From positions 20,633 to 84,632 of the forward strand of contig JABSSL010000023.1 in NCBI GenBank assembly GCA_013214355.1: DNA of 64,000 nt. Direction: 5' to 3'. The translations under genes and the position numbers were made by a program. The notes under the pieces were generated by a model. That model had not been told where the DNA came from. It saw nothing but the letters and a program-made list of their open reading frames with translations, and ran no database searches. The stretch comes from Saprospiraceae bacterium. GTDB lineage: Bacteria > Bacteroidota > Bacteroidia > Chitinophagales > Saprospiraceae. Below are positions 1-55,922 of this stretch, piece after piece; the first letter of the stretch is position 1; every line of letters starts with the position of its first letter.

Positions 1-2505
1 CTAGCCAAGGATCGACTTGGCGCCTACTTCACCGAAGCCAAGGCCGACCTGACGCCGGAAGAGGTGAAGCCAGGTAATAAGCCCATCCCTTACATAGAGA
101 TAGTAGCAGAAATGAAGGGCAGTGAGTTAGAGGGAACGGAATACGAACAACTTCTGCCTTATGTTACGCCTAACAAACCTGCTTTCCGAGCCCTCTTGGG
201 GGACTTTGTTTCTACGGAGGACGGTACAGGTATAGTACACATTGCTCCGACTTTCGGTGCGGATGACTTTAAAGTAGCTCAAAAGTATGATATCCCCCCT
301 TTGATGGTGGAGGATGAGTATGGTAATCCGATGCCACTGGTGGACAAAAAGGGCCAGTTTGTGAAGGAGGTAAGCGACTTTGCTGGACGCTATGTCAAAG
401 ATTATGGGCAAGAGGAGGAACGTTCAGTGGATTCCGATATCGTCATCAAGTTGAAGACAGAGAATAAGCTTTTCCACTCAGAAAGATATCTGCACTCCTA
501 TCCACACTGCTGGCGAACGGATCGCCCTGTATTGTATTACCCATTGGATAGCTGGTTTGTACGAGCTTCTTCTATGAAGGACCGGATGTTTGAATTGAAC
601 CAAACGATCAATTGGCAGCCAAAATCTACAGGGGAAGGCCGTTTTGGAAAATGGTTAGAAAACCTACAGGATTGGAACCTATCTCGTTCGCGTTATTGGG
701 GGGTACCTTTGCCGATTTGGCGGACAGAGGATGGAGAACAGGAACTTTGCATCAGCTCTATGGAGCAGCTGCAGCAGGAAATAGATAAAGCCAACGCCGC
801 TTTGGGCTTGCAGCAGACTTTACCCAAGGACCTTCACCGTCCTTACATAGATGGAGTGGTCTTGGTATCCGATGATGGTCAGGAAATGAAGCGCGAACTA
901 GACTTGATCGATGTATGGTTTGACAGTGGCTCCATGCCCTACGCACAATGGCACTATCCGTTCGAAAACAAGGATAAGTTTGAGCAGAAATTCCCAGCGG
1001 ATTTCATAGCGGAGGGAGTGGATCAAACCCGTGGTTGGTTCTACACCTTACACGCGATTGCTACTATGGTATTCGATAGTGTAGCTTTTAAGAACGTAGT
1101 GTCAAACGGATTGGTACAGGACAAACATGGCCGCAAGATGTCGAAACGCCTCGGTAATGCCGTGGAACCGTTCGAAACCTTGGCTACCTACGGAGCAGAT
1201 GCTACCCGCTGGTATATGATGTCCAACTCTGATCCTTGGGAAAACCTCAAGTTTGATATCGAAGGAATCGGCGAGGTACAGCGTAAGTTCTTTGGTACGC
1301 TGTACAACACCTACTCCTTCTTTGCTTTGTATGCCAATATAGATGGCTTCAAATACGAGCAAACTGATGTGCCACTTGGTGATCGCCAAGAAATAGATCG
1401 TTGGATCATATCCCAATTGAATTCCTTGATAGAGGAGGTGGATGCAGCTTACGCCGAATATGACGTAACGACAGCTACCCGGAAAGTGATGAACTTTGTG
1501 AATGATCACTTGAGTAACTGGTATGTCCGCCTTTGCAGACGTAGATTCTGGAAAGGAGAGTATACAGCAGATAAGATAGCGGCTTATCAAACGCTTTATC
1601 AATGTCTGAACACGGTGTCTAAACTGATGGCTCCGGTGGCTCCATTTTTTGCAGATTGGTTGTACGGAAACCTCAATACGGCCACGCAAAAGGAATCCAA
1701 TATATCTGTGCACTTAGCCGATTTTCCTAAAGCTGATAGTAGTGCTATCGATAAAAAGCTGGAACAACGGATGAATTATGCACAACGGATCTCTTCTTTG
1801 GTCTTGTCTATCCGAAAAGCGGAGAAAATCAGAGTACGTCAACCGCTGCAAAGGGCACTATTGCCAATCTTAGATGCCTCCTTCCAAGAACAGGTGGAAG
1901 AAGTGAAAGACTTGATCTTAGCGGAGGTGAACATCAAAGATTTGGAGTACATCACGGATACCAGCGGAATCGTCACCAAGAAGATCAAGCCGAACTTCCG
2001 AACACTCGGGCGTCGATTGGGTAAGCAAATGAAAAATGCTGTCCAAATCATCAATGGCTTAGGCCAGGAAGATATCAATCAGATCGAACAAAGCAATCAG
2101 TATACCCTGAGTATCAATGGTGATACCTACGATCTGACTTTGGAAGACTTTGAAATCATAACCGAAGATATTCCAGGCTGGCAGGTGGCCAACGATGGCG
2201 CCTTGACCGTAGCCTTAGATGTAAATATCTCTGAGGACTTAGAAGCCGAAGGAATGGCCAGAGATTTGGTCAACCGTATACAGAATATCCGAAAGGATAA
2301 GGACTTTGAGGTGACGGATAAGATAGAGGTACTAGTTGAACAACACAGCGGTGTCGAATCCGCTATTGAACAATTTGGTTCCTATATAAAAGACGAAACC
2401 CTTGCCGTGGAATTGACTAGTAGCGCCGAGCTGACTGAAGGCGAGGTAGTTGAACTCCCTGGAGATATCAAGTTGCATATTAAGGTACAAAAAGCTAATT
2501 TGTGA
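1..2505 (+). CDS. ileS: Isoleucine--tRNA ligase, C-terminal part (5' truncated by window edge)
   Basis: Frame is open from base 1 (LAKDRLGAYFTEAKADLTPEEVKPGNK...). Class I aaRS features: DVWFDSGSMPYAQWHYPFE, FIAEGVDQTRGWFYTLH, KMSKRLGN, anticodon-binding region NWYVRLCRRRFW. The listed start at 64 (GTG) is internal. Confidence 0.97.
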   Translation, partial: LAKDRLGAYFTEAKADLTPEEVKPGNKPIPYIEIVAEMKGSELEGTEYEQLLPYVTPNKPAFRALLGDFVSTEDGTGIVHIAPTFGADDFKVAQKYDIPPLMVEDEYGNPMPLVDKKGQFVKEVSDFAGRYVKDYGQEEERSVDSDIVIKLKTENKLFHSERYLHSYPHCWRTDRPVLYYPLDSWFVRASSMKDRMFELNQTINWQPKSTGEGRFGKWLENLQDWNLSRSRYWGVPLPIWRTEDGEQELCISSMEQLQQEIDKANAALGLQQTLPKDLHRPYIDGVVLVSDDGQEMKRELDLIDVWFDSGSMPYAQWHYPFENKDKFEQKFPADFIAEGVDQTRGWFYTLHAIATMVFDSVAFKNVVSNGLVQDKHGRKMSKRLGNAVEPFETLATYGADATRWYMMSNSDPWENLKFDIEGIGEVQRKFFGTLYNTYSFFALYANIDGFKYEQTDVPLGDRQEIDRWIISQLNSLIEEVDAAYAEYDVTTATRKVMNFVNDHLSNWYVRLCRRRFWKGEYTADKIAAYQTLYQCLNTVSKLMAPVAPFFADWLYGNLNTATQKESNISVHLADFPKADSSAIDKKLEQRMNYAQRISSLVLSIRKAEKIRVRQPLQRALLPILDASFQEQVEEVKDLILAEVNIKDLEYITDTSGIVTKKIKPNFRTLGRRLGKQMKNAVQIINGLGQEDINQIEQSNQYTLSINGDTYDLTLEDFEIITEDIPGWQVANDGALTVALDVNISEDLEAEGMARDLVNRIQNIRKDKDFEVTDKIEVLVEQHSGVESAIEQFGSYIKDETLAVELTSSAELTEGEVVELPGDIKLHIKVQKANL

Positions 2506-2514
2506 CGTTCATGG

Positions 2515-2542
2515 ACAGGCTCTAGCACCAACTAGAGCCTGT
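2515..2542 (+). terminator. Stem-loop after ileS (11-bp stem ACAGGCTCTAG/CTAGAGCCTGT), terminator-like but without a strong U-tract
   Basis: Perfect inverted repeat 2515-2525 / 2532-2542, immediately 3' of the ileS stop. Confidence 0.5.
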
Positions 2543-2576
2543 GCCTATCTACCTAACTCTCCAAATTCGCTTGTTG

Positions 2577-4526
2577 ATGAAATCATTACTGACATTATTC
2601 ACTCTAGTATTGACTGTAGGTACAATGCTAGGGCAGAGCCTCATTGTCTCTCCTGAGAAGCCTAGCCCAGGGGATGCGATCACCTTTACCTATGATAAGA
2701 GTGGAACACCACTAGCAACAGAAAAGGCTATTCAAGCTATTGCCTATCTATGTATGGACGAAGGGCTTCCGCATGCGATCGAAGTTGATTTGACCACCGA
2801 TGGAGCCAATCTGAAAGGCAATTTTGCAACCGACGAAAAAACACGGGCCGTCTTTATCGTCTTCAAAGATGCTATGACAGAAGAAATCATTGATAATAAT
2901 GCAGATAAGGGCTATAAGACAAAGATGTACACGGCCGATAAATCTAAAGTAGTCAAAGGAACTTACGCAACCTTAGCGAATGTCTATGGCTCCTATGGCA
3001 GCATCATGGAAATGCAACGTGATCCAGCAAAGGGTATTAAGTATTTCCAGAAGGAACTTAAGTCTTACCCAGAGTCGAAGGTAGACGTCTTAGGTTCATA
3101 TGCTTCCATGGCTCAACGCAATAAGGACGAAGCGGCAATTGCAAATGCGAAAGAATTACTGGAGGAACTAAAGAACAAGAAGAAAGCTACTGAGGATGAT
3201 AAAATGCTTGCTTATCGGGTAAGTAAATCGCTCAAGGATGATGAAGGAGCAGAAGCCATTGCTGAAAAGCTTCGCAAGAAATACAAGAAAGGTCAAATGA
3301 TCATGAATGATGATCAACAAGCTTTCTATAAAGAGAACGATTTGAGTAAGAAGGTAGCCCTTTTTGATGCCTTTAAGAAAAAATACGCCAAAGCAGAAAA
3401 GTTGGACAACATGCTATCGAGCATGGCTTACCGCTTGGTGGCTGCCGCTGGACAGAATGCGAAGTGGGATATGTTTGATACCTACCTAGCTTACCTTACT
3501 AGCTCGAATCAAAAGGCAAGTATGCTCAACAATTTCGCCTGGGGACTTTCCGGCGAGGCTGTTGATAAGGAAGCTAAGGATATCGTACAAGCAGAAAAAT
3601 TGTCCAAGCTATCACTTGATCTCTTGAAGAAAGAGATGGAGGACTTGACTGCTAATAAACCGGAATATTTGACGGCGAAGCAATGGAAGAAGCGTTTGAA
3701 GGGAAGCTACTACATGTACGCAGATACATATGCGCTGACCCTGTACAAGCAAGGAAAAAAGGAGGAAGCACTGGATTATCAAGAGAAAGTATGTAGCCAG
3801 GCCGGCTTTGTTGGTGGTGAAATGTACGAGCGATTAGCTGTTTATATGGAAGGTGTGAAAGGAGGTGCTGCAACAGAAGCCTTTCTATCAGAGAAGATTA
3901 AGGAGAACAACGCCACTGCTGCCATGAAAAAGCAGCACCGCCGTCTCTTCCTCGCCAATAATTCAATCGAACAAGCTTACGATAAGTATCTAGCAGGTTT
4001 AGAGAAGGAGGCCAGCGCTAAATTCCGAGAGGAACTCATCGCTAAAATGATCAATGACGATGCTCCAGATTTTCGCTTGCTGGATTTAGATGGGCAAGAG
4101 GTGAGCCTAGATGATATGAAAGGGAAAGTGGTTATCCTGGATTTCTGGGCGACTTGGTGTGGTCCTTGCAAAGCTTCCTTCCCAGGGATGCAGAAGATGG
4201 TGGATCTCTATAAGGATAATGATAAAGTAGCTTTTCTCTTTATCGATACTTGGGAGAGTGCCAAGGATAAAGAAAAGGCCGTATCTGAGTTCATCAATAA
4301 AAATGAATATACCTTCCAGGTACTGATGGATAAAAAAGATGAGGTGGTGGCTAAGTATAAGGTGGAAGGAATTCCTACGAAGTTTGTTTTGGATGGCAAT
4401 GGCAAAATCCGATTTAAGAGCGTGGGCTTCGCTGGAAATGATGAGGCACTGATGACTGAGATGAACTTGATGATTGAATTGGCCGGAGGAAAATCTGGCG
4501 TGGATTTGTCAAAAGCAGATGACTAA
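2577..4526 (+). CDS. TlpA-family thioredoxin-like protein with N-terminal signal peptide and helical/TPR-like middle region
   Basis: MKSLLTLFTLVLTVGTMLGQ signal peptide (start preferred over 2541); C-terminal DLDGQEVSLDDMKGKVVILDFWATWCGPCKASFPGMQKM with CxxC active site. Confidence 0.88.
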   Translation: MKSLLTLFTLVLTVGTMLGQSLIVSPEKPSPGDAITFTYDKSGTPLATEKAIQAIAYLCMDEGLPHAIEVDLTTDGANLKGNFATDEKTRAVFIVFKDAMTEEIIDNNADKGYKTKMYTADKSKVVKGTYATLANVYGSYGSIMEMQRDPAKGIKYFQKELKSYPESKVDVLGSYASMAQRNKDEAAIANAKELLEELKNKKKATEDDKMLAYRVSKSLKDDEGAEAIAEKLRKKYKKGQMIMNDDQQAFYKENDLSKKVALFDAFKKKYAKAEKLDNMLSSMAYRLVAAAGQNAKWDMFDTYLAYLTSSNQKASMLNNFAWGLSGEAVDKEAKDIVQAEKLSKLSLDLLKKEMEDLTANKPEYLTAKQWKKRLKGSYYMYADTYALTLYKQGKKEEALDYQEKVCSQAGFVGGEMYERLAVYMEGVKGGAATEAFLSEKIKENNATAAMKKQHRRLFLANNSIEQAYDKYLAGLEKEASAKFREELIAKMINDDAPDFRLLDLDGQEVSLDDMKGKVVILDFWATWCGPCKASFPGMQKMVDLYKDNDKVAFLFIDTWESAKDKEKAVSEFINKNEYTFQVLMDKKDEVVAKYKVEGIPTKFVLDGNGKIRFKSVGFAGNDEALMTEMNLMIELAGGKSGVDLSKADD

Positions 4527-18396: not shown

Positions 18397-18664
18397 AAAG
18401 GTTAGTTTTAACAGATTCTGTAAAAGGAAAGGACGAAGAATGCTTTGAGTGAACGGGAGTAGTTTGCGCGTTTACCGGTCTGATAAACCGGGTTTACAGA
18501 TTTGTTGTTGAGAGCAGATATTCTTGCCTTTCCAAGCTAGTATATCATTCTAACGTAAAATGACGGAAAAGAAACACACCGTAGCCTTTTTTATGAAAAT
18601 CCCTGGTATCCAGCTTCCCCTTCCTCATAATATCCGTAATTTTCGGCCTGCTAAAAATATTGTC

Positions 18665-19576
18665 ATGCTAAAGAAAACTACTCTTACTATAGCGGCGATC
18701 CTCATTAGTTTAAACCTCAAGGCCTGGTGGGATCCGGGGCATCTAGTAGTGGCTATGATTGCCTATCTGCAACTGGATGAACAAGCCAAGGAGGAGGTCG
18801 ATGAATTGGTTAAAGTGCTACAGCGGGACTATCCCTATGTCAATCATTTTGCGGCTACCGGACCCTGGCCAGATGATCTTAAGGCAGAAGGCGTCCGTAC
18901 CTTTGATACTTGGCATTACACCAACCTTCCTTACAATACCTCCGGAGTCGCCCTTAATCCGAATCCAATGGTCAATGTGGTTTGGGCCATCAATCAGATG
19001 GAAGATGTCCTTTTATCCCCCAAGGCCCGCCCAGTAGACAAGGCTCGACATTTGGCCTTTCTGGTGCACTTTGTGGGAGATATTCATCAGCCGTTACACT
19101 CTACAAGTGTGCACAATAACGATTTACCTGGGGGTAATTTAGGAGGTAACATCTATCCCTTGGATAGTCAGAGATGGCGTAACCTTCATGCCTTATGGGA
19201 CTCCGGCTGTGGATACTTGGCCAACTATAATAATATTAATCCCTATGGCTCGCCAAAGGAAGCCTTGACAAAGGAGGAAATCGATCGCTTGTGGAAACTA
19301 GCGGAGGAGATTATTGCCCTAGCACCAAAGGAGGAGATTGTCGGTCTAGAATTAATGGACCCAGATTTTTGGGCATTGGAAAGTCATAAACTGGCGATTA
19401 AGTACGGTTATCAAGGGGTGAATGAGATTGATGAGAATGGTCGTGAGATATGGCTAAAGCCTAATATGGCTCCTTCTAGGTTGTACTTGAAAAACGGACA
19501 AGAAGTAGTTGTGAAGCGCCTGGCAACAGCCGGTTATCGCTTAGGCGCGATGCTAAATTCAGCTTTCGGAGAGTAG
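18665..19576 (+). CDS. S1/P1 nuclease family protein (secreted)
   Basis: Signal peptide, then mature W (KAWWDPGHLVVAMIA); HFVGDIHQPLHSTSVHNNDLPGGNLGGN zinc-site motif; NLHALWDSG. Start at 18665 is preferred over 18560. Confidence 0.93.
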   Translation: MLKKTTLTIAAILISLNLKAWWDPGHLVVAMIAYLQLDEQAKEEVDELVKVLQRDYPYVNHFAATGPWPDDLKAEGVRTFDTWHYTNLPYNTSGVALNPNPMVNVVWAINQMEDVLLSPKARPVDKARHLAFLVHFVGDIHQPLHSTSVHNNDLPGGNLGGNIYPLDSQRWRNLHALWDSGCGYLANYNNINPYGSPKEALTKEEIDRLWKLAEEIIALAPKEEIVGLELMDPDFWALESHKLAIKYGYQGVNEIDENGREIWLKPNMAPSRLYLKNGQEVVVKRLATAGYRLGAMLNSAFGE

Positions 19577-20707
19577 CCTGGGATCGATGCCTTTTTGGAA
19601 ATCTTCGTAGAAATGGTCAAGATAATCGGCCGTTTTAAAATTGGACATGATATAGTGATATTCCTTGGCACTTTGTGTTTCCTCTGGAGTAGGTTCAATT
19701 CGATTTGTTTGCAGCGAACGCCTTGCGTATTGCCTGGCGTTTTCACCGGATACAAAGAAATGAGCTACCAGGCCGAGGTAATTGTTCATCGTCAAATAGT
19801 CGATATTGTCTCTGTCCATAATCTCTGCTAGTACATTGGTGGCAATCTGGTATTGGCCTTGTCTCAAGGCTAAGCGACCAATGTCAAACAATTTATCTGA
19901 GGAACGAGGAATTAGGGTGATTACGTTCAAGACCAAAGGCATCATATCCGCATAATCACGTTTCAAGGCAGCCAGAGCGATCTTTGTGGTACAGTCCTTG
20001 ATTTTGCGGGTTTCATTGCCATAGAAAACCTCATTTTCTGGGGTATTGTAATCACTTAACTTCATCAGGATACCCTTGTAAATCGTCAGTACTTCAATCA
20101 TATTATTCTTGCTGCCGGGCTCTACGGAGTTAGTCACAGCATTACATAAGGTATCGATGATGGAAATTAAGCCATCGCTATCAAAGTCGCTATTTCTCAA
20201 GTCCATCACGCACATCAGAATCTCTTCCAAAGCTTCAATAACATTGCGGGTTTCCGCTCCCCCCTTCGAATAAATACCCATGTATTGTAGATCTTCAAAG
20301 AAAGCGGGATCTAATTGTTCCGTCTTTTTGATGCCTTTAAGGAGTTTTACTTTAATCATTTGCACAATCCTCGCCCGGTAGCCCTGGGATTTGAACATAT
20401 TAAAGAACAAGAAACCCAAGGTGGAACAAAGTAGGAGCCCAAATAATACCGTAACAATATCGCTGTTCTTGGCACCTAGGTCGATCCCCTCATGAATGTT
20501 AGAGATGTAGGATACTGCTACGATGGCTACTAGAATCACGGCCAAGAAACAGATTTGTACAATGATATTTTCGTTGTAGTTTTTTTTGCTCATCCGACGG
20601 AGGTCGTCGGGCATAAAGATCTGATTAACCAATATGGGGAGCCCCAGTAGGAATACAAAGACGGTGACCGAGATTTCGACGATGAGATTGATGTAATCGT
20701 TTTCCAT
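19559..20707 (-). CDS. Multi-pass membrane protein with soluble helical C-terminal domain, unknown function
   Basis: About three hydrophobic segments in the first ~120 aa, then a long predicted-helical soluble region; third gene of a probable operon. Confidence 0.75.
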   Translation of the reverse strand: MENDYINLIVEISVTVFVFLLGLPILVNQIFMPDDLRRMSKKNYNENIIVQICFLAVILVAIVAVSYISNIHEGIDLGAKNSDIVTVLFGLLLCSTLGFLFFNMFKSQGYRARIVQMIKVKLLKGIKKTEQLDPAFFEDLQYMGIYSKGGAETRNVIEALEEILMCVMDLRNSDFDSDGLISIIDTLCNAVTNSVEPGSKNNMIEVLTIYKGILMKLSDYNTPENEVFYGNETRKIKDCTTKIALAALKRDYADMMPLVLNVITLIPRSSDKLFDIGRLALRQGQYQIATNVLAEIMDRDNIDYLTMNNYLGLVAHFFVSGENARQYARRSLQTNRIEPTPEETQSAKEYHYIMSNFKTADYLDHFYEDFQKGIDPRLLSES

Positions 20708-20718
20708 ACAAAAGGCTT

Positions 20719-21219
20719 TTAGGAAGACGATATGCCATTTTCCTGACTTACTTTTTTGATGAAATCCAATAGCGCCGTATGAGGCATGATGGCATTTTTA
20801 CGCTGGTACTGGATGCTAGTCAGCTTCAGTTTTCCTAAATCAGCTTTGAGCTCATCATGGCGTTCCACCGTGAAGATGCCATAGCGATCAGGGCTAAGGT
20901 TTTGATTCACCTTCAGGGTAGGCTGCTGTTCATTTTCATCAAATATGCAACGGAGTAGTTCCAAGCCTAATCGGCTAGAGTTTACATTATTGCTTCTGCG
21001 TAGGGATTCGTGCTTAGTGCGCCAAGCTGGATCTTTACCTGGTGGAATCCGGATGTCTACAATGATTACATCATATCCTCTCTGATTGAGATAGTAGAAG
21101 GCTTCCGAAGCATTTGTAGCAATATCAAGATTGAATTGCCCATCTATGTAGACAGGACTTGTCAAATGGTATAAATCGTTGTCTGCGTTGTCTTCTATCC
21201 AAAGTACTTTTGCCGTCAT
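20719..21219 (-). CDS. Stand-alone response-regulator receiver (REC)-like protein
   Basis: MTAKVLWIEDNADND (acidic pair), YDVIIVDIRIPPGKD (candidate phospho-Asp); no DNA-binding domain visible; ATGA overlap with upstream kinase gene. Confidence 0.8.
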   Translation of the reverse strand: MTAKVLWIEDNADNDLYHLTSPVYIDGQFNLDIATNASEAFYYLNQRGYDVIIVDIRIPPGKDPAWRTKHESLRRSNNVNSSRLGLELLRCIFDENEQQPTLKVNQNLSPDRYGIFTVERHDELKADLGKLKLTSIQYQRKNAIMPHTALLDFIKKVSQENGISSS

Positions 21220-23066
21220 AAAGAGGGTTTGGTTCGAGCTAATTTCAAGTTTACTCTAGTGATGAAAGGGTTGGAATAATCATCCTTGGCATTGCCTAAG
21301 GAAGGCTGGCTGCTAATGATCATATCTCCCTTGTGTTTTTCAATTACTTTCAAGCTGTCATATAGCCCCAGGCCAGTACCTGGGCGACGGCGGTCGCTGG
21401 AATTGATTCCGCGATAGCCGACCTTGTAAATAAGACCTTGCTGGATTTCTTCCTCGGTGATTGGGACACCCCAATTTTCGATTTGAATATACACCCAGTC
21501 CCGGTCAACTTTGCCATCTACAGCCACAAAAGCAATGGCGGGTGGCCTGCGCTCCCAGCTATATTTAATGGCATTGTGCAAAATATTAAGTAATGCACGT
21601 ACTAGGTCATTTTCAAAGCCGTCAATGCGTACATCTCGGAGCTCTCGTAGGTTAGCTCTCAACTCGATATTACGCTTGGTGGCATACTCTCCCATATTCT
21701 TCACCACGCCAATCATAATATCATAAATATCAAGCGCTTCCAACTGTTCCGCCTGCTTGACACGAGTCAAAATATAGCTGCGAAGGTTGTTGACGACCGT
21801 CTCCATCTCCAACACTGTTTCCACTCCTCTTGAAAGGGTGACTAAGCTACAAAGCTTTAGTATGGAAGTCAACAATTGTCGGATTTCTTTTAATAGCTCT
21901 TTGGGGAAATGTCCTCTATCAATTTCGTTAATATCCTCTCGAATCTTGATTGATCCGTCCCTAACAATAGCTAAGTGTTGGACATTGAGTTGCGCGCCAA
22001 TATCTCGAGCAATGAGCGATAAAATACGCTGTATTTGGTGCACCTGCTGTTCCTTGAAATAGTTTACCTCCTCGTTTTTAGCCCAGAATCTATCAAAGGC
22101 CTTTAGCAGCACTCCGATCTGTTGTTGCAGCAGTATGCTAACTTTCTCCTCGTCAAGCTGTCGTGTTTGTGGATTCTTTTCCTCCTTGGCGATGAAGGAG
22201 CGAATGACCGCATCCATGGTGTGTTTGGAGTGAATTAAAGTAGAGGAATAGGAATGTAATACCTTACCAAAATCAGTAGTCAGTTCATTGAGCTGCTGCT
22301 TGGTCTCCCAATAATCGGTGACATCTCTTTCCGCTCCAACTCGCCCAATGATATTGCCTTCTCGATCCTTTAGTAGGTTTATATGTACCTCTAGTTTTCT
22401 TTCTTCCCCTTTTTGATCTCTAATATTCACAATGTAATCCACCAAAAATTGACCGCGTTCATAGGTCTCAACCAACTCTTTCTCAAACTGCTCATACTCT
22501 TCGACGGAAGGGTGAAAATCCCTTACATCTCTACCTATTACTTCTACTGGATTGTCAAAGCCTAAGTGTTTGGCAAAGTGGTCATTGCAATACACCAGCT
22601 CGTGATCTCCTTGGCTATTTATCCGAACCTTATATAGGCCTATAGGCACATCTTTAAACAATCGGTTATAGCGATCCCCTTTGGAAATAGCAATCATGAT
22701 GCAAAGTATCCCCACAATCTCATCTCCCGTTTCGTTCCAGATGGCTTTACTATGATCCCTAACGTGTCGTATCTCTCCGTTTATTTCTAAATCGAGTGTA
22801 GTGTTACGGAGCCACTTATCCTTGGGAAGATCATGCAGCTCTCGAATATGGTAATCTCTCTCGTCTAGATATACATAATAATCGCAGAGATTGGTAGTAG
22901 AAGATCCCTCATCAGGTAGCCCGAAAAGCAATCGACACTCTTCATTGTATTGAAGAAACTGTCCGTCCAAGGTAGTAAGAAAGACAGCGAAAGGTAGATC
23001 TTCGTAGCGCTGATATTCGGAGGCTGTCAGCTGTATGATATGTTGAAAGGAACTGTCGCTAGGCAT
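21216..23066 (-). CDS. PAS-domain sensor histidine kinase (HATPase_c)
   Basis: Two PAS-like regions, including GRVGAERDVTDYWETKQQL; N-box LVRALLNILHNAIKYSWE; G2 box RRPGTGLGLYDSLKVIEKHKGDM. Start MPSDSSFQHI at 23066 is preferred over 23108. Confidence 0.9.
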   Translation of the reverse strand: MPSDSSFQHIIQLTASEYQRYEDLPFAVFLTTLDGQFLQYNEECRLLFGLPDEGSSTTNLCDYYVYLDERDYHIRELHDLPKDKWLRNTTLDLEINGEIRHVRDHSKAIWNETGDEIVGILCIMIAISKGDRYNRLFKDVPIGLYKVRINSQGDHELVYCNDHFAKHLGFDNPVEVIGRDVRDFHPSVEEYEQFEKELVETYERGQFLVDYIVNIRDQKGEERKLEVHINLLKDREGNIIGRVGAERDVTDYWETKQQLNELTTDFGKVLHSYSSTLIHSKHTMDAVIRSFIAKEEKNPQTRQLDEEKVSILLQQQIGVLLKAFDRFWAKNEEVNYFKEQQVHQIQRILSLIARDIGAQLNVQHLAIVRDGSIKIREDINEIDRGHFPKELLKEIRQLLTSILKLCSLVTLSRGVETVLEMETVVNNLRSYILTRVKQAEQLEALDIYDIMIGVVKNMGEYATKRNIELRANLRELRDVRIDGFENDLVRALLNILHNAIKYSWERRPPAIAFVAVDGKVDRDWVYIQIENWGVPITEEEIQQGLIYKVGYRGINSSDRRRPGTGLGLYDSLKVIEKHKGDMIISSQPSLGNAKDDYSNPFITRVNLKLARTKPSL

Positions 23067-52736: not shown

Positions 52737-55700
52737 TTATAGAGTAGGTATACTTAAGGTCACAATCGTTCCTTCTAGGGAAGGTGTAGCGGTCAGTTTA
52801 CCATTCAGTTTCTCGGCTCGCATTTTCATGTTTTCTACGCCTAGCCCACTACTAGGTCGTTCCCACTTTCGAATGGCTTCACTTCCATTGTCATGCACAC
52901 TCATGGTAAAGGAAGTATTCGAGTTTTGAAGGCGGATCAAGACCTGGCTGCTGTCGGTATGCTTCACGATATTGGTGATAGCCTCTCTAAAGATGAGCTG
53001 CAACTGTTGTCGAGTATCAATCTGCAGTGTTTTTTCGTTGGGAAGGTTGCTAGTTTGAAACTGAAAGCTAATTTCTTTGGGAATAAGCATTTCTTCGGCA
53101 TGTTCCTGCATCCTTTCTACCAGATCTTTCACCTTGGATCGCCGCGTGTCAATAGACCAAACCAAATCCCGCATTTTAGAGACGGCTTGCCGGCTAATAT
53201 CACTTAGGTATTGTAGCCCCGCCTTATCTTCCGGCTGGGCTTTCATCTCCATGATTTCCGCTTGCATGGCTAAGCCAGATAACATAGATCCTACTTCATC
53301 GTGCAGGTTGCTGGAAATCTGTAAACGCATGCGTTCCATTTTCAGGAATTGCTGCCATCGATATTGGAAGATCAGAAAGATGATCGAAGTAATGAATACC
53401 ATACACAGCACAAAGAACCACATGGTATGGTAGAAATAAGGTTTTACATGAATGGGAATACTTAATTGACTGCTACTCCAATTCCCCCTAGAATCCGCAC
53501 CTTTTATATGCAGGATATATTCTCCCACAGGCAGTCGATTGTAACGCGTAGAGGGTTGGTTACCAATGTAAGTCCAGTCTTCTTCTAAGCCCTCTAATAG
53601 GGTGTAGTATTGATTCTTATCTGGTTTTAGGTAATTGGGTAGGGTCCAATTGACTTGAAAATAGGATACATTGGGTTTGATGATTAAGGTGTCCTTCTCA
53701 AAGAAGCGGAGATCCTCTTGTTCCAGTTGCTTTGACTGTTGTGCGAACTGAGACCAGTGCGTTAGCTGTAAGGGTGGGTTTGGGGCTTGGCCAATGATGT
53801 CCTGTGGATAAAAGGCAGTGACCCCATTCATACCTCCGAAGTAATATCGTCCTTGACTATCTTTGAAATAAGAAGCGTAATTGAATTCGTAATGAGAAAG
53901 CCCATCCTCCTGATAGAAATTCTGAAAGGTTTCGGTGGGTTTATGGAAACAGGATAGCCCATTGTAAGTGCTTATCCAGAGGTAATCTTGATCAAACCCC
54001 AAAATGCCTACGACATTGTTATTAGCCAAATTATCCTTTTGGGTATAAATGTTGACCGACTGCTGCTCAGGGTCCAACCGATTTACGCCTCCACCGAAGG
54101 TGCCAATCCACAAAGTCCCCTCCTGATCCTTTTCTATACACAGAATATGATTATGACTGATGGCAGGGGTGGAGGTAGTCGAATAATGCTGCAAGATATC
54201 TCCCGCTTTGCTCACTAGTATCAGACCGGACACCTTGCTCCCAATCCAGATGGTTTCACCGTCCTCCAATAAGAATTTGACTTGGTCATCACTAGATAGA
54301 GGCGAATCTGCAGGAATGAGTTTTTCATAGGACTGTGTATCGGGATCAAAAAGGCTTAAGTGTTGTAAAGAATGCCCAAGCACCAATTGGCCGTTATCCA
54401 GTGCGAGAATCGGATTAGGACTATGTCCTGCTAGTAGGCCGGAATTAACGGGGATATGGTTAAGCGCGTGCGTCTGTTCTGGCAAAAAAAACAATTGTTC
54501 GTTGGCACTCCAAACTCCTTGGCGTTTGTGATCAAAAGAGAAGAAGTTGCTAAAGCCAAAAGGGAAATCTTTAGTTCTCGAATTAGCCGCTGTGAGTTCG
54601 GCTATGGCCTCACCGGTTTGCCAATCTAGTTGGTGCAAGCCTTCTACTCCTCTTTCACACATTACAAATACTTCCCCCGCATTATTTTCAAAGAACCCTC
54701 GCGTTGTATTTCCCCATTCGACCTTTGGAATGCTAAGGAAATTCTTGAATGCTTGTTTCTTAATGGGCAATTTTATGATGCCATTATCTGTCCCCACCCA
54801 TAGCAATTGCATCTGATCTTCAAATAGGCAATTGATCGTAGTGAAGTCAAAGGGCTTATTAATCTCTTCACTATAATCCGTCCATTCCTGATCGGTATTT
54901 AATGATAACAATTTTCTTTTGGTGGCAAACCATATATGTCCTCTATGGTCTTCTAGTGTTACGTATACTGGGCTATCCAATCCCTCTTTAATGATCTCTT
55001 TTTCACCGGTGACAAGATCTAAGGTCCAGATCTCATTTTTACTTTTAGGGAATAAGAAAATATGATCCTGGCTATCTATATGAAATGGAGTAAAATACAT
55101 GCGGTTCTCATACCAAATGAAGCTGTCTACCTTTGCTTCCCAAAGGAGGTGTCCACTTGGGCTGAGTTGTCGAATTCCTTGATCTATTGTCGTCCAAAAA
55201 ATATTCCCTTCTGTATCAGTACCGATTTGTGTAAAGTCTCGAATACCCCTTTTTGATTTTGCAATGGAATTTATTTGGTTGGAGCCAATGACCTCCATGA
55301 GGTATTGGTATTCGCTATTCTCCGCAACTACCCAGAGTTTACCCAACTGTCCCAAATGCAGTTGCAACAGATCCATGGGATGGTCAGGGTTTTCTGCATT
55401 CGAAACTTGTACTGAAGTAACTTCATTCGTAAGAATACTCAGGTAGAACAGTCGCTTGTTGGCGATATACCAGATAGCACTATCTCTGATAACCATCCCT
55501 TGCTCCGCAAAATCTTCTACAGGAAGCGGGTGATCACCTAAAGGCCCTTTGTTATAATACGTGAATTCGTAGCCATCAAAACGGTTGAGGCCCTGCTGGG
55601 TAGCCAGCCACATTAAGCCTTGCCTATCTTGTGCAATGGCCTTTACGTTTCTGAAGCCCAGCCCATCTTCTATGGTAATGGCATCAGCGGTTGGTAAGTT

Positions 55701-55751
55701 TTGACTGGAGAGAGAGCAGAAAAGATGAATAGCGCAAACAAATACCAGCAT
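52737..55751 (-). CDS. Two-component-regulator-propeller sensor kinase with NarL-type HisKA_3/HATPase
   Basis: ITIEDGLGFRNVKAIAQDRQGLMWLATQQGLNRFDGYEF; Y_Y_Y-like region; TM; RMRLQISSNLHDEVGSMLSGLAMQAEIMEM. Start MLVFVCAIHLFC at 55751 is preferred over 55871. Confidence 0.93.
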   Translation of the reverse strand: MLVFVCAIHLFCSLSSQNLPTADAITIEDGLGFRNVKAIAQDRQGLMWLATQQGLNRFDGYEFTYYNKGPLGDHPLPVEDFAEQGMVIRDSAIWYIANKRLFYLSILTNEVTSVQVSNAENPDHPMDLLQLHLGQLGKLWVVAENSEYQYLMEVIGSNQINSIAKSKRGIRDFTQIGTDTEGNIFWTTIDQGIRQLSPSGHLLWEAKVDSFIWYENRMYFTPFHIDSQDHIFLFPKSKNEIWTLDLVTGEKEIIKEGLDSPVYVTLEDHRGHIWFATKRKLLSLNTDQEWTDYSEEINKPFDFTTINCLFEDQMQLLWVGTDNGIIKLPIKKQAFKNFLSIPKVEWGNTTRGFFENNAGEVFVMCERGVEGLHQLDWQTGEAIAELTAANSRTKDFPFGFSNFFSFDHKRQGVWSANEQLFFLPEQTHALNHIPVNSGLLAGHSPNPILALDNGQLVLGHSLQHLSLFDPDTQSYEKLIPADSPLSSDDQVKFLLEDGETIWIGSKVSGLILVSKAGDILQHYSTTSTPAISHNHILCIEKDQEGTLWIGTFGGGVNRLDPEQQSVNIYTQKDNLANNNVVGILGFDQDYLWISTYNGLSCFHKPTETFQNFYQEDGLSHYEFNYASYFKDSQGRYYFGGMNGVTAFYPQDIIGQAPNPPLQLTHWSQFAQQSKQLEQEDLRFFEKDTLIIKPNVSYFQVNWTLPNYLKPDKNQYYTLLEGLEEDWTYIGNQPSTRYNRLPVGEYILHIKGADSRGNWSSSQLSIPIHVKPYFYHTMWFFVLCMVFITSIIFLIFQYRWQQFLKMERMRLQISSNLHDEVGSMLSGLAMQAEIMEMKAQPEDKAGLQYLSDISRQAVSKMRDLVWSIDTRRSKVKDLVERMQEHAEEMLIPKEISFQFQTSNLPNEKTLQIDTRQQLQLIFREAITNIVKHTDSSQVLIRLQNSNTSFTMSVHDNGSEAIRKWERPSSGLGVENMKMRAEKLNGKLTATPSLEGTIVTLSIPTL

Positions 55752-55922
55752 TTGTTTGCCTCGGATCAAGGCAGTGTTGTTTAGAAAAGAAAGTAGTCTG
55801 TACACGCTATGCTTAAGATGTCCTATGCAATTTAGTTTTCTCCGGCTAAATCCCTTTACTTTTATCAACATATTTTACTAGATGGCAGGACTGAGGTATT
55901 TTTTTACCCCATACAAATGCGA

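Follow-up and report, generated by a model that had tools for sequence, protein, structure and literature searches.

A conserved kinase, receiver, and membrane-protein trio in Saprospiraceae as a candidate two-component module with membrane output

The window analyzed here is a stretch of 64,000 nucleotides from a Saprospiraceae bacterium (assembly GCA_013214355.1, contig JABSSL010000023.1, forward-strand positions 20,633 to 84,632), whose genome comprises 11.2 Mb in 224 contigs and has uncultured Lewinella and Saprospiraceae MAGs as its nearest named relatives. Three adjoining genes on the minus strand, hereafter the trio, encode a sensor histidine kinase, a receiver protein (REC), and a membrane protein, with the following features in window coordinates:

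23066..21216, minus strand: soluble sensor histidine kinase, 616 aa from ATG; by Pfam and AF2, PAS domains at residues 27-127 and 142-248, a region read as non-canonical DHp with helical insert at 250-433, and a catalytic ATPase domain at 443-611
22254..22256, minus strand: His271 of the kinase, candidate phospho-acceptor in an LHxYxxT box (alignments and five further genomes)
21903..22193, minus strand: helical insert of the kinase, residues 292-388, variable in sequence (AF2 secondary structure and alignment)
21465..21476, minus strand: altered G1 box of the kinase, N531-W-G-V534, invariant as NWGV in all members (canonical DxGxG)
21219..20719, minus strand: REC, 166 aa, single-domain receiver without output domain
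21055..21057, minus strand: Asp55 of REC, predicted phospho-acceptor (alignments of homologues)
20964..21036, minus strand: extended beta3-alpha3 loop of REC, about residues 62-85, with a conserved PPG...W motif (alignments)
20707..19559, minus strand: membrane protein of 382 aa, with three TM helices at the N terminus followed by a predicted cytosolic alpha-alpha superhelix
20618..20686, minus strand: TM1 of the membrane protein, residues 8-30, F-x2-G-x-P-x4-Q (column conservation in 14 divergent members)
19592..20308, minus strand: predicted cytosolic helical superhelix of the membrane protein, residues 134-372, TPR/HEAT-like in outline (AF2)

Gene layout and conservation of the trio

The first-pass annotation of this DNA had described three open reading frames with a 4-nt overlap between the kinase and REC genes and an 11-nt gap between the REC and membrane-protein genes, and all of this was confirmed on the minus strand. 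Its further proposal of tight translational coupling held in part: the 4-nt overlap was found again in 10 of 13 measured loci, and by coordinates in L080-L083 as well, but the distance from REC to the membrane-protein gene spans -4 to +216 nt among the measured loci, so that tight coupling of this second pair is not universal. The trio's neighbors in the window are genes for a GntR regulator, a VWA protein, an S1/P1 nuclease, a DUF5060 protein, and a PMT-like protein; the nuclease gene (18560-19576, plus strand) is convergent with the membrane-protein gene, and their 3' ends share 18 nt (19559-19576). Elsewhere in the window, positions 52737-55871 (minus strand) encode a histidine kinase of 1044 aa with one TM segment, an HDEVGS H box, and a repeat-rich N-terminal part that reads like a two-component-regulator propeller plus Y_Y_Y architecture.

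The order kinase, REC, membrane protein is kept in every genome whose flanking DNA is long enough to tell (18 of 18), a count without L014, which lies at a contig edge, and the uninspected L079, and it holds down to about 30, 25, and 18% identity for the three proteins, respectively. The trio is therefore syntenic in every informative genome, and the lack of synteny that the first-pass annotation had named as a possible outcome did not occur. The membrane protein is present in 6 genomes among 41 relatives and at nine loci in the GTDB genome collection, and every one of these loci that reaches far enough has REC and the kinase upstream in the same order. When a kinase profile (region 251-440) was searched in 299 genomes of the window's order, seven matched, one belonging to another family and three standing at about 30% kinase identity; in all seven, REC and then the three-TM/helical protein lie directly downstream of the kinase. 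A membrane-protein profile applied to the same sample returned the identical seven genomes plus three weak partial matches. Weak partial profile matches in G436, G505, G507, and G540 were taken as noise; G436 was the only one looked at, and no trio was visible there. A search centered on the genus of one divergent member found the membrane protein in 9 of 37 genomes; five of the newly seen ones were read, and all have the kinase and REC upstream (5/5). Searches starting from the kinase alone or from the membrane protein alone led to the other two genes wherever the flanks were readable. One Phaeodactylibacter MAG (L011:832-3021) has its kinase divided between two ORFs (832-1830 and 1912-3021), owing to either a frameshift or an assembly error.

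The pairwise distances obtained for the kinase, REC, and the membrane protein are closely correlated (r 0.95-0.98), as is partly expected from a common species history, and no fourth gene common to different genera was found in the flanks. Because the trio is constant in order, co-diverges, and has no flanking gene shared between genera, it is itself the unit, a genuine one that goes beyond a chance operon. Its distribution is patchy, and all observed cases fall within the window's order (Saprospiraceae and one genome of another family), with none found in samples of 198-396 genomes from other orders of the phylum. Plasmid-borne copies of REC were also searched for, and none was found. The earlier suggestion of proximity to a defence island was not supported, as there was no strong PADLOC match and the neighbors are ordinary, none being conserved between genera. 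The trio was likewise rejected as a known anti-phage defence system, since PADLOC gave only weak generic similarity to ATPase domains or REC.

Kinase, receiver, and membrane protein

By Pfam, the kinase carries two PAS domains and a HATPase_c domain (PF02518, E 1.6e-11), the latter present in all 8 aligned members. Two PAS domains are also found in its closest relatives, and most of the more distant members have three; the alignment lacks the middle PAS, which suggests an internal domain loss in the window's genus. No TM segment was found in the kinase (maximal 19-residue hydropathy 1.31), and the membrane protein is thus the trio's only membrane part.

The first-pass annotation was correct that the kinase has no canonical HExxTP box, but the alignments reveal an invariant histidine in a non-canonical one. 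Among the His residues that precede the ATPase domain, His271 alone is invariant, and it lies within the motif L-H-x-Y-x2-T, invariant in all members; compared by eye, HSYSSTL stands against HELRTPL, with Ser, Thr, or Ala rather than Glu or Asp at H+1. No HisKA-clan Pfam match was obtained at E 1 for the window kinase or at 0.1 for any of the 8 members. His271 is separated from the N-box Asn498 by 227 residues, compared to about 120 residues from the phospho-acceptor His to the N-box Asn in HK853; the spacing to the N box thus exceeds the usual one by about 107 residues, and additional helices occupy the intervening stretch. In the AF2 model (mean pLDDT 73, pTM 0.42, with pLDDT below 50 at 262-270 and 422-440), a helix at 250-291 is followed by three short helices at 306-382 and a long helix at 389-433, the helical insert sitting between the His271 helix and this long helix, which enters the ATPase domain. 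Conservation is seen in the block around His271 and in a segment at about 403-436, and the helices between them are variable. We read region 250-433 as a probable DHp hairpin with a helical insert, although the AF2 model of the kinase is weak. A profile alignment to the PDB instead matches the HK853 hairpin to about 390-436, a stretch lacking a conserved His; if this register is correct, His271 falls outside the usual place and the kinase could be a pseudo-kinase.

The HATPase N and G boxes had been described as intact, which is true of the N box and the G2 box (N-box Asn/Lys and G2 GTG[LI]GL are invariant among the members) but not of G1, where Asn replaces the Asp. In a comparison biased to high-scoring kinases, the source genome's 30 best HATPase_c loci showed DxGxG in 30 of 30 cases and a canonical H box in 25. 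This genome (G000) contains 148 HATPase_c matches in its 11.2 Mb, a very large set of histidine kinases.

In REC, the Pfam Response_reg match falls below threshold, and residues E9/D10, D55, T117, and K141 are conserved in type in all members, down to 25% identity. The unusually long segment after the phospho-site that had been pointed out earlier is a loop insertion of roughly 20 residues between beta3 and alpha3, which places 30 residues between Asp55 and the Gly of alpha3, compared to about 8 residues from the phospho-Asp to this Gly in CheY. One divergent REC (L084:5148-5600) has MDLRHPAG where others keep D[IL]R[ILM]PPG. REC was also right to be described as lacking an output domain, as no further domain was found in any member (about 150-168 aa). 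The single-domain make-up of REC throughout supports the earlier idea of a non-transcriptional module, one without a transcriptional output of its own.

Hydropathy places the hydrophobic segments of the membrane protein at residues 9-27, 48-66, and 84-102, and basic stretches after TM1 and after TM3 indicate that the C-terminal part is cytosolic. The AF2 model (pLDDT 77) comprises three long helices followed by about 12 helices forming an alpha-alpha superhelix, in agreement with the three or so N-terminal TM helices and cytosolic helical domain proposed at the outset. Pfam matches to TPR_9 and TPR_16 are weak and below cut-off, Foldseek found no PDB match at E 1e-3, and the family has no match in Pfam, NCBIfam, or PADLOC or by PDB sequence search; on the same searches, a known transporter or sensor was rejected, which answers the check that the first-pass annotation had proposed. 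Existing domain libraries recognize neither the DHp of the trio's kinase nor its membrane protein. Conservation in the latter peaks in TM1, with a mean column identity of 0.61 across 14 members against 0.38-0.54 for TM2, TM3, stalk, and superhelix. Residues F19, G22, P24, and Q29 of TM1 are kept in at least 13 of 14 divergent members, and TM1 is accordingly probably more than an anchor. No invariant Gln occurs in the cytosolic part, Q29 belonging to TM1 and Q287 not being conserved in L026 and L027.

Proposed signalling route and its rivals

The constant side-by-side arrangement of the trio points to a dedicated signalling unit that may act at the membrane and not on genes. The sequences show that the three genes are obligately linked, that their products co-diverge, that the chemistry of REC is intact, that His271 is invariant, and that TM1 is conserved. 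Given this chemistry and histidine, a soluble kinase, and an obligate superhelical membrane partner, phosphotransfer followed by binding of REC~P is the best explanation, namely a stand-alone two-component module with membrane output in which REC~P would dock on the membrane protein; we put this reading at even chances. The cytosolic PAS kinase would sense an internal cue and autophosphorylate on His271 in its non-canonical H box, and the phosphoryl group would pass to Asp55 of the lone receiver, a transfer that we predict with good confidence. Phosphorylated REC would then bind the three-TM protein encoded beside it, docking on the cytosolic alpha-superhelix and changing the state of this protein through the conserved TM1 bundle; both this docking and the role of the membrane protein are putative, and a signal running from REC to the membrane protein is about as probable as one that does not.

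That REC delivers its signal to the membrane protein, as first proposed, fits the obligate co-occurrence of the two, but the membrane protein could equally sit upstream, and this is the main rival to membrane output. TM1 might sense the state of the membrane or envelope and the superhelix recruit or gate the kinase, REC, or both, with the target of REC elsewhere. The conservation of TM1 and the lack of a TM segment in the kinase would suit such a role; a receiver without an output domain could have a distant partner, and the 148 HATPase_c matches in the genome make partners plentiful. However, the kinase already carries two or three PAS sensor domains, the membrane protein comes last in the operon, and no fourth gene that might serve as output is common to different genera, so we regard an input role as rather unlikely, though a serious contender. 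Considerably less probable is a negative regulator whose superhelix would sequester or dephosphorylate REC at the membrane, by analogy with the action of Bacillus Rap on Spo0F. Rap proteins consist of a 3-helix bundle and a TPR domain and act on the single-domain REC Spo0F (PMC3035606), and the trio similarly pairs a helical-repeat domain with an obligate single-domain receiver; nevertheless, no Pfam TPR exceeds the cut-off, the cytosolic part has no invariant Gln, and Foldseek ranks a Rap structure no higher than 46th (E 0.1). A Rap-type phosphatase was rejected on the sub-threshold TPR matches and the absence of the catalytic Gln pattern.

Marginally more improbable still is a DivL-like pseudo-kinase, in which the altered G1, the missing acid at H+1, and a remodelled DHp would mean signalling by binding to REC or the membrane protein without phosphotransfer. 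Both the H box and the G1 box are non-canonical in every member, and alignment in the canonical register yields no conserved His; against this, His271, the N-box Asn/Lys, and the G2 motif are invariant, and REC retains all of its phosphorylation residues. We strongly disfavor the notion that the three genes are simply co-transcribed housekeeping neighbors with no joint function, as the trio remains intact in different genera although the genes around it differ, and each genome in the 299-genome sample of the order has either all of it or none.

Among orthodox bacterial response regulators, the majority exert their effect on DNA. No published description of the trio, that is, of the kinase subclass, the loop-extended lone receiver, and the obligate membrane protein, was found in the open-access literature. 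We tentatively propose, with somewhat less than even confidence, an undescribed class of two-component system with protein-protein output only, in which a loop-enlarged lone receiver switches a three-TM superhelical effector and is driven by a new kinase subclass defined by LHxYxxT, a DHp insert, and NWGV. If true, a kinase-receiver pair wired to one membrane protein would constitute a compact, genetically portable, post-translational membrane switch, bringing with it a kinase subclass missing from domain databases and a function for a membrane-protein family without annotation.

Comparison with known systems

With its HATPase_c domain and receiver residues present and His-Asp transfer predicted, the trio is a two-component system in kind. 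Orthodox HisKA systems of the HK853-RR468 type likewise combine PAS input with a REC whose phosphorylation residues are intact, and the ATPase domain of the trio's kinase aligns with that of HK853 (E about 1e-15 by profile and about 1e-10 by Foldseek). Compared to this type, however, the kinase has no Pfam HisKA-clan match, an LHxYxxT H box, about 107 extra residues, and an NWGV G1 box, its REC lacks an output domain, and a third, obligate membrane protein is added. CheY, Spo0F, and DivK resemble the trio's REC in being receivers only, with phosphorylation residues kept and no DNA-binding domain, whereas the latter has a beta3-alpha3 loop about 20 residues longer with the conserved PPG...W and invariably has a kinase and a membrane protein of its own encoded beside it.

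The Rap/Spo0F pair (PMC3035606) offers an analogy only, in that a helical-repeat protein is paired with a single-domain REC; unlike Rap, the trio's protein is membrane-anchored, shows no detectable homology to it, and has no conserved catalytic Gln in its cytosolic part. The DivL/DivK and Osp/CckA circuits (PMC9430884) resemble the trio in the use of a single-domain REC as a protein-binding output, as proposed for the trio, and in possible pseudo-kinase behavior. In contrast to those circuits, the trio conserves its His and N/G2 boxes, involves no CckA or ChpT homologue, and unites REC, kinase, and membrane protein in one operon.
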